NCBI RefSeq assembly: GCF_005222915.1
Contig: NZ_STFX01000040.1
Location: 1-64,000, forward strand
DNA length: 64,000 bases
Direction of reading: 5' to 3'
DNA from: Rhizobium sp. FKL33
GTDB taxonomy: Bacteria > Pseudomonadota > Alphaproteobacteria > Rhizobiales > Rhizobiaceae
The translations under genes were made by a program, and so were the position numbers. This document shows positions 3,640 through 8,130 of this stretch, one piece after another. Under the pieces are notes generated by a model. It was given only the letters and a program-made list of their open reading frames with translations. It did no database searches and was not told the origin of the DNA. How positions within the stretch are numbered: position 1 is the stretch's first letter; each line of letters opens with the position of its first letter.

Positions 3640-3813
3640 TCGATGAAAACACAAAAGCCCGCCGCGGGAGGAGGAGCGGCGGGCTTTCGATAAACTCGAT
3701 GACGACTTGGGAGGAGGAGCGTCGTCATCCTGTGATGCACGGCCCTTGGGAGGAGGAGTGGACCGTACAATCCACAAGGCTTTGCGGGAGGAGGATGCAT
3801 TGCCTTGTTGGAA
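3640..3813 (-). ncRNA. Cuckoo/CcsR-like anti-SD RNA array 1 (four hairpins)
   Basis: Four consecutive stem-loops each present GGGAGGAGG on the + strand, which is CCUCCUCCC on the minus strand, a mimic of the 16S anti-Shine-Dalgarno. Stems (+ coordinates) are 3654-3665/3676-3687 (12 bp perfect), 3698-3706/3721-3729 (9 bp perfect), 3740-3746/3760-3766 and 3775-3785/3797-3807. Minus-strand transcription is favoured for three reasons: the strongest hairpin comes last and is followed by TTTTGTGTTTT like an intrinsic terminator; the third stem has a G-U wobble only on this strand; and the flanking genes are minus. The array lies between tal and the wzz-like gene. Loop motif and tandem layout match the cuckoo/CcsR sRNA family described in Rhodobacter and rhizobia. 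Ends are inferred from the -10-like box and the T-run. Confidence 0.8.
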
Positions 3814-3819
3814 GTAGGT

Positions 3820-3871
3820 ATAGCCGCATTCGCGAAATCCCGCCAGACGAATTGCTGCAGTGCAGCTATGC
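3820..3871 (-). promoter_or_regulatory. Promoter region of RNA array 1 with conserved upstream element
   Basis: On the minus strand GCATAGCTGCACTGC (3857-3871) is followed after exactly 31 nt by GGCTAT (3820-3825), a -10-like box about a dozen bases upstream of the first hairpin. The same two blocks with the same spacing occur upstream of array 2. The distal block would sit near -44 to -58, a position expected for an activator site. The sigma factor and regulator are unknown. Confidence 0.55.
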
Positions 3872-3895
3872 GGAATTCGCAAGCCACGAACGAGA

Positions 3896-3927
3896 AACCC
3901 CGCCGAAGCATTGCTTTCGACGGGGTT
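3896..3927 (-). terminator. Intrinsic terminator of tal
   Basis: Near-continuous inverted repeat (AACCCCG at 3896-3902 pairing with CGGGGTT at 3921-3927, with further pairing inside) located 25 bp past the tal stop. On the minus strand it ends in GGGGTTTCTCG, so the U-tract is short. Confidence 0.55.
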
Positions 3928-3951
3928 CAGCGGGGATAGAGATGGCAAGGC

Positions 3952-4911
3952 TCAGGCAGCCGCCAGTTCTTTCTTCACCATGGCGCGGAGCGCGACGAGG
4001 TCCTTCGCAAAGGCGCGGATGCCTTCAGCCACCTTCTCGGTGGCCATAGCGTCCTCGTTCATCATCCAGCGGAAGGTCTTTTCGTCGACAGCGATCTTGT
4101 CAACCGGCTTGGACTGCTCCGGCGACAGCTTCTTTTCAAGCACGCCCTGATCAGCGTCGAGCTGTTCGAGCAGAGCAGGGCTGATCGTCAGCCGATCGCA
4201 GCCAGCCAGCGCTTCGATTTCGCCGGTGTTGCGGAAGGATGCGCCCATGACGACCGTGTCGATGCCATGAACCTTGTAGTAATTGTAGATCTCGCGCACC
4301 GACACGACGCCCGGATCGTTTTCCGACGTGTAGGTCTGTCCGGTGGATTTGACGTACCAGTCGAGAATGCGACCGACGAAGGGGGAGATCAGGAAGACCT
4401 TGGCGTCGGCGCAGGCGACCGCTTGCGCCATGCTGAACAGCAGGGTCAGATTGCAGTCGATGCCTTCCCTCTGCAGGATCTCGGCGGCGCGGATGCCTTC
4501 CCAGGTGGAGGCGAGCTTGACCAGGATGCGGTCGCGCTCGATGCCGCGCTCCTTGTAGGCGGCGATGACGCCGCGCGCCTTTTCGACCGAGCCTTCGATA
4601 TCGAAGGACAAGTCCGCGTCGACTTCGGTCGACACGCGGCCCGGCACGAGCTTGGAGAGTTCGACGCCGACGGAAATGGCCAGACGATCAGCCACGGAGG
4701 CGATGACCGCCTCTTCCGAGCCGCTCTGCTTCTTGCCCCAAGCCACAGCTTCGGCGACCTGATCCTTGAACATCGGCGTACCCAATGCCTTGAGCACGAT
4801 TGTTGGGTTGGTGGTGCAATCGATCGGCTTTAGCTTTGCCACGGCTTCGATGTCGCCGGTATCAGCCACGACGGTGGTCATGGCGCGAAGTTGTTCCAGT
4901 TTGGATGTCAC
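3952..4911 (-). CDS. tal: Transaldolase (class I, TalB type)
   Basis: A 319-aa transaldolase of the pentose phosphate pathway, transferring dihydroxyacetone from sedoheptulose-7-phosphate to glyceraldehyde-3-phosphate in the cytosol. The Schiff-base lysine is K132 in ILVKLAST, the same number as in E. coli TalB, and the N-terminal acid D17 (ADTGDI) and the DCTTNPT signature (31-37) are present. Length is normal for the subfamily. It is a single-gene unit, divergent from the SorC-type regulator at 5.2 kb and closed by its own hairpin terminator. The divergent arrangement suggests, but does not prove, control by that regulator. Confidence 0.97.
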
Positions 4912-5152
4912 ATTGTCCTCCGTTCGAGCTACTCGGACCCGGCGCGCCGGAGAATCCGCGAGAGAAATATCTGACTTGTCTATTGCCGGATAATGCGACT
5001 TATGTCAAACAAAGAGCGCAAATGTTTCAGAAAAAATGCGCCTCGGTTTTTAAGCGCGACGACCTTGTCATCGGGTTCAACGTCGCGCGGCGTGCAAGGT
5101 TGCAGGGACTGGCGGCTGCGGACGCCGACGAGAGAATGGGAGACACACACGG

Positions 5153-6124
5153 TTGGCGAAACTCGAGCGACACAGTCACACGCATCTGATGGATTCGCGC
5201 GCGCTGCGGCTCAGAGCGGCCTGGCTCTATTACAACAGGGGCCTCACCCAGAAGGATATCGCCGAACATCTCGGCGTCAGCCGCTCCACAGTCATTCGCA
5301 TGCTCGACGAAGCGCTGAAACGCGCAGAGGTGCAGATCTGGATCAACGAACAGCCCGGCGATTGCACGGCGCTCGCGCTGCGCCTTGAGGAGACGCTCGG
5401 ACTGGATGAAGCGATCGTCGTGCCAGGCGAAGGCAATACCGACGAGACCGCGCGTGACGTCGGGGCGGCGCTTGGCCGTTTCCTCTCGGAGGTTATCGCC
5501 GACGATCATGCAGTCGGCGTCGGCTGGGGGCGCACATTGAATGCGTCGCTGCAATCGTTTCGCCCTCCCCGGCGCGAGAATGTGCAGATCGTTTCGCTGC
5601 TCGGCGGCATTCTGGAGACCAATGCGGTCATCAACCCGATCGATTATTCCTGGCGGCTCGCCAGCCAACTCGACGCCGACTGTCTCCTGCTGCTCGCGCC
5701 ACTCATCGTCGACTCTGCCGAAACCAAAAAGAGCCTGATCGAACGCTGCGGCCTCGGCAAGCTTTTCGAGCGGGCGAAAAGCCTGGATATCGCCGTTATC
5801 AGTTGCGGTGATTTCAGCCCGACCGGCACGTCGATGTCACATAACTTCATTTCGGCGGAAGATCATGCTTCGCTGCTGAAGACAGGCGCAGTCTGCGACA
5901 CGCTCTGTCACTTCCTAGATGCGGAGGGGCGTGATGTCAGTCACCCAATCCAGGATCGCGTCATGACCGTAGGTCTCGATGCCATCTCGCAGGCGAAGCA
6001 CATCGTGTTGGCCTCAGGCGGCAAACGGCGCGTGCCTGCGATCCGGGCCACCATCAGGCGCACGGGCTGCCATACGCTGGTGACGGACGAAGCTGCGGCG
6101 CGAGGGCTTCTCGGCCTGGATTGA
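5153..6124 (+). CDS. SorC/DeoR-family sugar-binding transcriptional regulator
   Basis: A 323-aa protein with an N-terminal helix-turn-helix (about residues 31-52, LTQKDIAEHLGVSRSTVIRM) followed by a SorC-type sugar-phosphate-sensing domain. Conserved features are VGVGWGRTL (about 122-130), the LLGG segment and a C-terminal SGGKRRVPAI. Such proteins bind a phosphorylated sugar and regulate adjacent sugar genes. The TTG at 5153 has GGGAG ten bases upstream; the in-frame ATG at 5189 is an alternative start that would shorten the protein by 12 residues. The only divergent neighbour is tal, about 240 bp away, making pentose-phosphate metabolism a plausible target. No operator could be singled out in that gap. 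Confidence 0.85.
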   Translation: MAKLERHSHTHLMDSRALRLRAAWLYYNRGLTQKDIAEHLGVSRSTVIRMLDEALKRAEVQIWINEQPGDCTALALRLEETLGLDEAIVVPGEGNTDETARDVGAALGRFLSEVIADDHAVGVGWGRTLNASLQSFRPPRRENVQIVSLLGGILETNAVINPIDYSWRLASQLDADCLLLLAPLIVDSAETKKSLIERCGLGKLFERAKSLDIAVISCGDFSPTGTSMSHNFISAEDHASLLKTGAVCDTLCHFLDAEGRDVSHPIQDRVMTVGLDAISQAKHIVLASGGKRRVPAIRATIRRTGCHTLVTDEAAARGLLGLD

Positions 6125-6181
6125 GATCAGGATAGCGTATTCACGCTACCGCTTCACCTGAAGCCAGCCCGTCTCGGACGA

Positions 6182-7432
6182 TCAGAACTCCACCTTTTCC
6201 AAGGGCCGGCGACCAGCCTCGAACTCGCGCAGTTTCGCCTCTCTTTGCCCGATGTAATTCCGGCTAAAAGGCACGACATCCTGATGCTTTGCGAGTTGCA
6301 ACTGCATGATGAAGAGTCGGTCATGTCTGAACGCCGTCTCGGACACCGCCAGATAAAACTCCCACATCCGGAAGAACCGTTCATCATAGAGAGCCACGGC
6401 CTCCGCCTTACGCGCCACGAAACGTTCACGCCACGCTCTCAGCGTATGGGCGTAATGCATTGGTAGAATTTCGATATCCTTGATCAACAGGCCAGCCGCC
6501 TCGACGGCCGGAAGCACCTCGGCGACCGAAGGCATGTAACCACCCGGGAAGATGTACTTTTCAATAAATGGATTGGTGGCGTAGTTCGGTTTGGTCCGGC
6601 AGATGGAATGCAGGACCATGACGCCCTTCTTGTCCAGGCAGCTCGACACCTTTTTGAAGAAGCGCCGGTAGTTGCCGACACCCACATGTTCGAACATGCC
6701 GACCGACACGATCCGATCGAACTTGTCCTCCACATCCTGATAGTCGGTGAGCTCGAAGCGAACGCGATTGGACAGCCCCCGGCGCGCGGCGCGATCGCGG
6801 GAGACCTTCAATTGCTCTTCGCTGAGCGTGACGCCGGTGACGTCGACCTCCTCCGCCTCCGCCAGATACATGGCCATCCCGCCCCAGCCCGAACCGATCT
6901 CGAGCACGCGATTACCCTTCTCGAGGAGAAGCTTGGCGGCGATATGTCGTTTCTTCGCCAATTGCGCCTCGTCCAGCGAAATGCCGGGCGGCTCGAAATA
7001 GGCGCAGGAATATTGCCAATCTTCATCCAGGAAGAGATCGAACAGCTTGGCGCTGAGATCGTAATGATGGGAAACATTCTGCAGGTTTCGGTTGATCGGA
7101 AAGCGGCTCCACAACTGTGTTGCAATCGCCCGGGCGAGCGTCTTGGCCGCAAGCTTCATATTGCCCGCCTTCCGGACGCCATTCCGCCGCAGCAGGGAAA
7201 GCAGATCGAAAATGTCGCCAGCCTCGATCAAGAGCCGACCATCCATATACATTTCGGCGAGCTTGAGCGCGGGATCGGCAACGATGGCGCGCTCCGCTTC
7301 CGCATCGGCAATGCGGACAACGATGGTTTCCTCCGATCCATCGCCGAAGAGGCGCTCTTCTCCAGACGCCAAGATGAGTTTGAGCGATCCGGTCTGAACG
7401 ATCTTGCCGATCATCTGCGCAACGTCCGGCAT
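6182..7432 (-). CDS. cfa: Cyclopropane-fatty-acyl-phospholipid synthase
   Basis: A 416-aa SAM-dependent methyltransferase that adds a methylene across double bonds of membrane phospholipid acyl chains at the inner leaflet. The SAM-binding motif is VLEIGSGWGGMA (176-187). The family's SHHYDLS (121-127) and YSCAYF (141-146) segments are intact, and length is close to that of proteobacterial Cfa. Rhizobia usually carry two such genes. The gene lies downstream of RNA array 2 in the same direction, 146 bp from the array's terminal hairpin, so it should have its own promoter. Cfa enzymes are typically stress or stationary-phase induced, which fits a stress-RNA neighbour, but co-regulation is only an inference. 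Confidence 0.95.
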   Translation of the reverse strand: MPDVAQMIGKIVQTGSLKLILASGEERLFGDGSEETIVVRIADAEAERAIVADPALKLAEMYMDGRLLIEAGDIFDLLSLLRRNGVRKAGNMKLAAKTLARAIATQLWSRFPINRNLQNVSHHYDLSAKLFDLFLDEDWQYSCAYFEPPGISLDEAQLAKKRHIAAKLLLEKGNRVLEIGSGWGGMAMYLAEAEEVDVTGVTLSEEQLKVSRDRAARRGLSNRVRFELTDYQDVEDKFDRIVSVGMFEHVGVGNYRRFFKKVSSCLDKKGVMVLHSICRTKPNYATNPFIEKYIFPGGYMPSVAEVLPAVEAAGLLIKDIEILPMHYAHTLRAWRERFVARKAEAVALYDERFFRMWEFYLAVSETAFRHDRLFIMQLQLAKHQDVVPFSRNYIGQREAKLREFEAGRRPLEKVEF

Positions 7433-7559
7433 TCAGTCCTCCATGCCCAGGGCATTCCTTACCAAAATCTAAATGAAAGAATGCGTTATGGCGCCGGGGA
7501 CCGCAAGTCGAAATCGAACAGCGCGACAGCCGAATCCAGATCGGAATGACGTGAGATTG

Positions 7560-7733
7560 CGGGAAAAACCAGGAATCGAAAAGGCCTGCCGTGGGAGGAG
7601 GATACGGCAGGCCTTCGAATGTTGGCTTGGCAACGGGAGGAGGTGTCGCCAATCCTGCGAAACAGCCTGGGAGGAGGAGTGGCTGTTTCAACGAAGAGCG
7701 GCGCTGGGAGGAGGATGCGCTGCTCTTGTGAAG
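7560..7733 (-). ncRNA. Cuckoo/CcsR-like anti-SD RNA array 2 (four hairpins)
   Basis: Four stem-loops with CCUCCUCCC loops on the minus strand. Stems (+ coordinates) are 7581-7592/7604-7615 (12 bp perfect), 7627-7634/7645-7652, 7660-7667/7681-7688 (8 bp perfect) and 7694-7704/7717-7727. As in array 1, the most stable hairpin is last in the minus direction and is followed by TT and then a TTTTT run, an intrinsic-terminator layout. The second stem pairs fully only on the minus strand (G-U instead of A-C), although the fourth favours the plus strand by one wobble. The array lies downstream of a DUF1127 gene, the context known for Rhodobacter CcsR1-4. Ends are inferred. Confidence 0.8.
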
Positions 7734-7739
7734 AGATAG

Positions 7740-7791
7740 ATAGCCCAGATGACGGGCGTCAGAAAGTCAGAATTTCGCAGCACAGCCATGC
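7740..7791 (-). promoter_or_regulatory. Promoter region of RNA array 2 with conserved upstream element
   Basis: Minus-strand GCATGGCTGTGCTGC (7777-7791), then 31 nt, then GGCTAT (7740-7745). Twelve of the 15 distal bases and the full spacing are shared with the region upstream of array 1, whereas the surrounding sequence differs. Because the DUF1127 gene upstream has its own strong terminator, this is the likely primary promoter of array 2. Confidence 0.55.
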
Positions 7792-7911
7792 ATTTTTGAG
7801 TTAGGTTGAGAGCGCAGACTCATATGTCATTGACATATTTATATTTTCTATCTTGATGCATCAGTTCTGCGCGAAAATTCATGTTCAAATATGACAGGAA
7901 CGTGGCAAAGC

Positions 7912-7983: not shown

Positions 7984-8130
7984 TTATGCGGCGATCGAGG
8001 CGCGGGCGATGCGGCGGATGTCTTCGCGGGCAATGCCCAGATCGTTGAGTTCGCGATTGGTCATACGGCCGAGTTCGTTGACGGTCTGACGATACTTGCG
8101 CCAAGCGTTGATGCTGCGTGCGACGTTCAT
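7984..8130 (-). CDS. DUF1127 small protein (YjiS/CcaF1-like)
   Basis: A 48-aa basic protein starting MNVARSINAWRKYRQTV with the DUF1127 core LGRMTNRELNDLGIARED and an arginine-rich tail (IRRIARASIAA). The ATG at 8130 is preceded by AGGAAAGG at a suitable distance. DUF1127 proteins of alphaproteobacteria include RNA-binding regulators such as Rhodobacter CcaF1, whose gene precedes the CcsR anti-SD sRNAs. The Agrobacterium members affect phosphate and carbon metabolism and RNA turnover. Here too a CCUCCUCCC stem-loop array lies just downstream on the same strand, although a strong terminator intervenes. An RNA-associated role is inferred from family and context. Confidence 0.88.
   Translation of the reverse strand: MNVARSINAWRKYRQTVNELGRMTNRELNDLGIAREDIRRIARASIAA

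Follow-up and report, generated by a model that had tools for sequence, protein, structure and literature searches.

How a bacterium uses several small RNAs (sRNAs) that expose the same pairing sequence is the question raised by a locus in the soil bacterium Rhizobium sp. FKL33, where two such genes appear to stand side by side. The locus lies in a stretch of 64,000 nucleotides (NCBI RefSeq assembly GCF_005222915.1, contig NZ_STFX01000040.1, positions 1 to 64,000), hereafter the window, and it consists of two arrays, A and B, each made of four hairpins on the minus strand. We consider it likely that A and B are two paralogous, independently transcribed, trans-acting sRNAs of the ar14 type (NfeR1/SmelA099, 'cuckoo'), which block Shine-Dalgarno (SD) sites of the GGGAGGA type. 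RNAs of this type are known from earlier work, and the novelty is limited to the side-by-side pair.

Results

The exact 9-mer GGGAGGAGG occurs eight times in the window, always on the plus strand and always within array A or B, where it reads CCUCCUCCC on the minus strand; CCTCCTCCC is absent from the plus strand of the window. Each of the eight copies forms the loop of its own hairpin, four per array, so that the motif count and the folding both confirm what a preliminary description of this region had proposed. With one mismatch allowed, the window holds 21 copies of the 9-mer where 19.5 are expected, which is no enrichment, and only the clustered exact copies stand out. Array A folds at -75.0 kcal/mol compared with a mean of -44.4 kcal/mol for dinucleotide shuffles, and array B at -68.5 compared with -40.1 kcal/mol (z about -8.4 and 0 of 200 shuffles as low in both cases). 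The clustering of exact copies, together with these folding energies, rules out a chance occurrence of the motif. The last hairpin of each array is the most stable one (A, -26.4 kcal/mol; B, -23.6 kcal/mol) and is followed by a U-rich tail, UUUUGUGUUUU in A and a weaker one, UUUUCGAUU, in B. This had also been noticed in the preliminary description, which gave the last hairpins 12 bp; we count 14 pairs in A and 13 in B. A plus-strand reading, as tandem SD sites, was set aside, because the U-rich tail and a conserved upstream element both fit a minus-strand transcript.

The arrays were delimited by matches to Rfam RF02344 (ar14), by folding and by R1, our own covariance model of the four-hairpin form, which was built on 27 rows including A and B:

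3652..3811, minus strand: array A, four-hairpin sRNA gene of the ar14 family (RF02344 match, R1 model, folding); predicted 5' end near 3812, predicted 3' end near 3645
3772..3811, minus strand: A hairpin 1, the 5'-most, not covered by the Rfam ar14 match (fold and paired changes in 27 arrays)
3736..3769, minus strand: A hairpin 2 (fold)
3698..3729, minus strand: A hairpin 3 (fold)
3652..3689, minus strand: A hairpin 4, terminator-like, loop with CCUCCUCCC (folding energy as above, U-rich tail)
7577..7730, minus strand: array B, four-hairpin sRNA gene of the ar14 family (RF02344 match, R1 model, folding)
7692..7730, minus strand: B hairpin 1, the 5'-most, not covered by the Rfam ar14 match (fold)
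7659..7689, minus strand: B hairpin 2 (fold)
7624..7655, minus strand: B hairpin 3 (fold)
7577..7617, minus strand: B hairpin 4, terminator-like, loop with CCUCCUCCC (folding energy as above, U-rich tail)

RNA family

In a cmscan search with curated cut-offs, RF02344 matched array A with 97 bits and array B with 87.1 bits (gathering cut-off 58.8). The CcsR1 model, RF02791, remained below its own cut-off of 65.3 for both arrays (B 36.5 bits, A 27.6 bits). The family named in the preliminary description therefore holds, by way of the ar14 model. All three hairpins modelled for ar14, with CCUCCUCCC in unpaired loops, are present in A and B. Unlike RF02344, the arrays have a fourth hairpin; the match spans three, and hairpin 1 of each array falls outside. 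This is relevant to automatic annotation, which can clip four-hairpin genes because the ar14 match omits the 5' hairpin. R1 gave 155 bits for A and 120 bits for B, both of which are among its training rows.

The four-hairpin form is itself in print. RFMSmelA075 has three hairpins and RFMSmelA099, published by Reinkensmeier et al. in 2011, has four; every loop carries CCUCCUCCC, several copies occur per genome, and the presumed action is blocking of the ribosome-binding site (RBS) (PMC3927594). Four consecutive hairpins, each with an anti-SD loop, characterize RFMSmelA099 and are found in both A and B, and several copies per genome are found here too; compared by description rather than by sequence alignment, no difference was found. 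According to excerpts of the same paper, RFMSmelA099 members occur across several Rhizobiales families. The arrays also resemble the ar14/alpha-r14 RNAs of Sinorhizobium meliloti (NfeR1, Smr14C2 and SmelC397) in having the motif in every loop, stems that are variable and covarying, a terminator hairpin that bears the loop motif, several copies per genome and a similar upstream box.

Conservation and covariation

Three genomes with the locus were aligned, namely that of FKL33, G003 (taken as Rhizobium sp. G21) and G008 (taken as Rhizobium sp. SG_E_25_P2). None of the loop-motif positions varied (0/36 in A and 0/36 in B, 0/72 aligned), compared with 75 of 92 positions in the downstream flanks (A 38/46, B 37/46). 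Free drift of the loops, which according to the preliminary description would speak against such RNAs, was thus not seen. The third loop of array B in SG_E_25_P2 is one base off the motif, in a gap column outside the 0/36, and 23 of 24 loops are exact. Between these extremes were the stems (A 18/96, B 10/94; 28/190 varying), the unpaired non-motif positions (A 10/35, B 8/30; 18/65) and the upstream regions including the promoter (A 63/148, B 90/168). Compared with the window, the base-pair cells of array A comprised 77 that were the same, 12 changed on one side, 4 changed on both sides and 3 broken; those of array B comprised 82, 7, 2 and 3, respectively. In an alignment of 27 four-hairpin arrays from the genus and the family, 25 of the 34 predicted pairs had changed on both sides with the pair kept in at least one sequence, hairpin 2 being poorly aligned there with three pairs recovered only.

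In a tree from promoter and RNA columns, A and B formed separate clades across the three locus-sharing genomes, each with 100% support. The branches deeper than these clades had little support, and therefore it cannot be said whether A and B are sisters. The idea that they are recent duplicates is unsupported for the same reasons.

Upstream regions

The sequences in front of the arrays contain the following promoter-like elements, all on the minus strand:

3818..3881: array A, promoter-like region (comparison of the sequences in front of 27 arrays and likeness to the LsrB motif, from sequence only)
3818-3823: CTATAC, -10-like, separated by a 17-nt spacer from CTGGCG, -35-like, at 3841-3846
3851-3871: upstream element of array A, GCATAGCTGCACTGCAGCAAT
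3869-3881: LsrB-box-like TGCG-N6-GCA of array A
7738..7791: promoter-like region of array B, with CTATCT at 7738-7743 and CTTTCT at 7761-7766 (placing inferred)
7772-7791: upstream element of array B, GCATGGCTGTGCTGCGAAAT, without the conserved left half of the LsrB-like box

Upstream of the 27 arrays GCATAGCTGCACTGCA is nearly invariant, and a -10-like TAT element is also shared. In the majority of the 27 regions a TGC half-site precedes GCATAGCTGCACTGCA, giving TGCn-N6-GCAT, which fits the LsrB motif TGCA-N6-GCAT; that motif of NfeR1 is backed by electrophoretic mobility shift assays and reporters in the excerpted text of PMC10746234. The box of array A, TGCG-N6-GCAT, is a near match, with TGCT in one relative. 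Because the box resembles the one through which LsrB acts on NfeR1, LsrB may be an activator here as well. Expression probably differs between A and B, as array B has only half of the LsrB-like box. This difference in the box is our one line of evidence for differing control, and it is read from the letters of the DNA. Further upstream of array B, a 19-nt block, TCCTGTCATATTTGAACAT (7881-7899, minus strand), is identical in the three genomes and its surroundings differ.

Number of arrays within and between genomes

The FKL33 genome has four ar14 matches above the cut-off and one just below it (58.6 bits). Two of these five loci are the four-hairpin arrays of the window and three have three motifs; together they account for 17 of the 51 exact copies of CCTCCTCCC in the genome, in which the reversed control pattern occurs 44 times. 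The three-motif pattern was present in 146 of 199 sampled family genomes and its reverse in 0 of 199. At a score of at least 112 bits, a line of our own choice made after the scores were seen, R1 found 56 loci in 26 of the 199 genomes; 23 of these loci were read and used in the model and the other 33 were counted by score alone. Two loci (L158 and L159) are four-motif arrays by reading and yet score below this line. Because 16 of the 26 genomes with any four-hairpin locus have two or more by R1 score, two such arrays in a genome are not odd. Same-strand pairs spaced by 13-17 kb were found in three other genomes (G101, G175 and G099), and the 3.9-kb spacing was seen within the sample in FKL33 and G008 only, and also in G003, three related genomes; pairs split over two contigs are missed by this search. 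The pair had been called unusual in the preliminary description, which holds for its spacing of about 4 kb, confined to one small clade, and does not hold for the number of four-hairpin copies.

Some related loci differ in size or spacing. L160:5774-6207 (G199:C54:17773-18206) has eleven contiguous CCUCCUCCC motifs in one array, in which spacings of about 34, 45 and 50 are repeated. L162 (G183:C1:878340-879319) has seven tandem three-hairpin units with 21 motifs, mostly near-identical; it directly follows an open reading frame (ORF) that is DUF1127-like by eye, and a strong U-tract stands behind the last unit only, as if there were one long precursor. L161 (G163:C1:3405235-3406130) has five exact and one variant three-hairpin units in tandem, and L163 (G072:C1:4345190-4345977) three units spaced by 352 bp. 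A limited search, which did not include a dedicated cuckoo paper, found no published description of such very long arrays, and we claim no novelty for them. L122 (G000:C52:109241-109371) represents a three-motif subtype with a wide spacing of 51-55 nt, scoring 58.6 bits, just below the ar14 cut-off; spacing of this type was read in 7 of 9 genus genomes. L104 (G003:C4:97137-97307) is a third four-hairpin-scoring locus of the G21-like genome (138.9 bits), has an odd first hairpin and adjoins an ORF whose start, judged by eye, resembles that of a LysR-type regulator.

Neighbouring genes

The genes around the arrays are as follows:

3955..4911, minus strand: tal, transaldolase, same strand as array A and upstream of it (PF00923, TAL_FSA, 2.5e-91)
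5153..6124, plus strand: SorC-type sugar-binding regulator (PF04198, Sugar-bind, 5.5e-55)
6182..7432, minus strand: cfa, cyclopropane fatty acid synthase family, downstream of array B (PF02353, CMAS, 7.8e-92)
7951-7923, minus strand: terminator-like hairpin between the DUF1127 gene and array B (12 pairs, T-rich tail)
7984..8130, minus strand: DUF1127 small protein of 48 aa, same strand as array B and upstream of it (PF06568 at 7987-8130, 1.3e-16, translation)

The names given earlier to tal, the SorC gene and cfa hold by Pfam, and the DUF1127 gene and the intervening hairpin had both been missed. The terminator scan found six such sites in the window compared with 4.9 in shuffles, so the hairpin at 7951-7923 is a match rather than proof. 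The DUF1127 gene lies about 250 bp upstream of array B, an adjacency like CIN1 that concerns array B only. In Rhodobacter, according to excerpts of PMC10253847, ccaF1 (DUF1127) is co-transcribed with CcsR1-4, an association named CIN1. These RNAs (CcsR1-4/'cuckoo', RF02791) share with A and B the loop motif, the DUF1127 gene in the case of array B, and the sub-threshold CcsR1 matches. They differ in having two hairpins (PMC3927594) and in sharing a transcript with the DUF1127 gene under an RpoHI/RpoHII promoter (excerpts of PMC10253847), whereas here the gene and array B are set apart by a terminator-like hairpin and a distinct promoter-like region. A CIN1-like arrangement was also seen at L120 (G000:C55), where a three-hairpin ar14 gene is followed by two DUF1127-like matches on the same strand; it recurs in other genus genomes.

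A search by protein gave 67 SorC loci. In two of them, those of Rhizobium sp. G21 and SG_E_25_P2, the fetched flanks contain arrays, defined as two or more clustered CCTCCTCC; the flanks were at most 6 kb long, and contig ends cut several loci short. The tal-SorC-cfa pair occurs in 3 of 9 genus genomes. Neither the Tal nor the SorC of this locus was found in any of the 27 ar14 regions fetched from the other six; these genomes have seven weaker ar14 places outside the 27, and tal genes elsewhere in them were not looked for. A distant Cfa-like gene (43%) at L118 was the sole one among the 27 regions. An old synteny of the arrays with these genes is therefore unsupported. The arrays sit in many contexts, matching the fragmented microsynteny reported for these RNA families in excerpts of PMC3927594.

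Loop pairing and target sites

The loop core CCUCC is also the core of the 16S anti-SD. That pattern was absent from the draft assembly searched, from which the rRNA operon is perhaps missing. GGGAGGA pairs better with the loop than with the 16S tail (-12.3 vs -9.8 kcal/mol), and AAGGAGGU pairs better with the tail (-9.9 for the loop vs -11.6 kcal/mol). In the genome, GGGAGGA-N4-11-ATG occurs 155 times and its reversed pattern 9 times; for AAAGGAG-N4-11-ATG, our control, the counts are 87 and 21. Several solute-binding proteins and enzymes of sugar catabolism are encoded behind GGGAGGA sites. For the control set 25 of 76 families were listed; no solute-binding family is among these, but three BPD_transp_1 and one ABC_tran are. 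In a first batch assigned by Pfam, ABC transport made up 8 of 25 target and 2 of 24 control genes (P 0.043). In a larger set searched by phmmer, 13 of 73 GGGAGGA-site genes and 2 of 73 AAAGGAG-site genes were ABC-transport-like; the target set covers the first 90 of the 155 sites, the remaining 65 being outside, and loci that were duplicates or had an ORF shorter than 60 aa were removed, 17 of the 90 in the target set and 14 of the 87 in the control set. The excess of ABC transport agrees with NfeR1 and is suggestive, no proof.

Discussion

We suggest that each array would give a minus-strand transcript of about 170 nt, which would start just before hairpin 1 and stop at hairpin 4. The four loops would present CCUCCUCCC as a seed for pairing with GGGAGGA-type SD sites and may thus keep the ribosome off chosen messenger RNAs (mRNAs), by analogy with NfeR1 mainly those of nutrient-uptake genes. 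They would be redundant binding sites on a structural scaffold. LsrB would activate array A, and B would be under a partly different promoter. NfeR1 of S. meliloti, the best-studied relative, is activated by LsrB and repressed by NtrC; through three loops with CCUCCUCCC, redundant with one another, it silences the mRNAs of ntrB and of two ABC transporters, according to excerpts of PMC10746234 and PMC7143759.

Several observations weigh against two active sRNAs with such targets. The -35-like hexamers are poor, and a generic promoter scan found the promoter of neither array, because of which the comparison of the 27 upstream regions was needed. In all three genomes array B has the right half of the LsrB-like box only. 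In the two relatives three of 96 base-pair cells in A and three of 94 in B are broken. In S. meliloti, northern blots gave a reliable signal for only one copy out of six (excerpts of PMC7143759), so that one array here, or both, could be silent under common conditions. On the side of the targets, the phmmer seeds were eight target and two control proteins, which favours the target set; one of the 13 target matches (L255) resembles a LacI-type regulator; and the control genes are shorter than the target genes. When only genes of at least 200 aa were counted, the difference was not significant (13/65 vs 2/32, one-sided P 0.067), and P became 0.27 when four control members were taken over from the Pfam counts with their lengths unchecked. 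The excess of ABC transport could also come from RBS usage by gene class, without any sRNA.

It is possible, though in our opinion rather unlikely, that A and B are functionally identical RNAs and that the second copy only adds to the number of seed loops, of which the pair has 8 and all five loci of the genome together 17. Their loop motifs are identical, 17 exact motifs lie in five loci, and several copies per genome are usual both in the sampled genomes and in PMC3927594. However, the stems of A and B have long diverged, A and B form separate clades, and the differences between their upstream regions are kept across three genomes, which suggests separate control rather than pure dosage. As the upstream regions differ, condition-split control of A and B is a live and possible idea.

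We regard a local role as quite improbable. The arrays might regulate tal, cfa or DUF1127, or B might be released by processing from the 3' part of the transcript of the DUF1127 gene, in the manner of the Rhodobacter ccaF1-CcsR operon (excerpts of PMC10253847), and the DUF1127 gene does adjoin array B on the same strand. However, the terminator-like hairpin and the separate promoter-like region lie between them, and related arrays live without these neighbours, since none of the 27 ar14 regions fetched from six other genus genomes carries the Tal or SorC of this locus. GGAGGA is present in the start regions of tal and cfa, that of cfa pairing better with the loop than with the 16S tail, and yet GGAGGA is an ordinary SD. 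The preliminary description had suggested a translational sponge or ribosome mimic. In such a system the loops would titrate SD sites globally or compete with the 3' end of 16S. The shared CCUCC core and the four sites per molecule would suit this idea. It is nevertheless unsupported and seems to us very improbable, because the loop prefers GGGAGGA over AAGGAGGU and because NfeR1 silences individual, named mRNAs, its three motifs being redundant in silencing (excerpts of PMC10746234).

A and B may belong to a wider pattern, which we offer as a speculation of low probability. How many anti-SD hairpins a transcript and a locus carry could be an evolutionarily tunable dial in the Rhizobiaceae: three- and four-hairpin forms would multiply as single copies or as close pairs like A and B, and certain lineages would extend them behind a DUF1127 gene into very long arrays (L160, L162), which would serve as high-capacity stress buffers of GGGAGGA mRNAs. 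A and B might then represent an early step of expansion, with promoter divergence giving them separate triggers. In the relatives examined a locus can have as few as three loop motifs or as many as 21, which makes the question of dosage testable. With divergent upstream regions in one locus, A and B are a clean natural pair of sibling four-hairpin ar14 RNAs, useful for asking why genomes keep several RNAs with the same seed.

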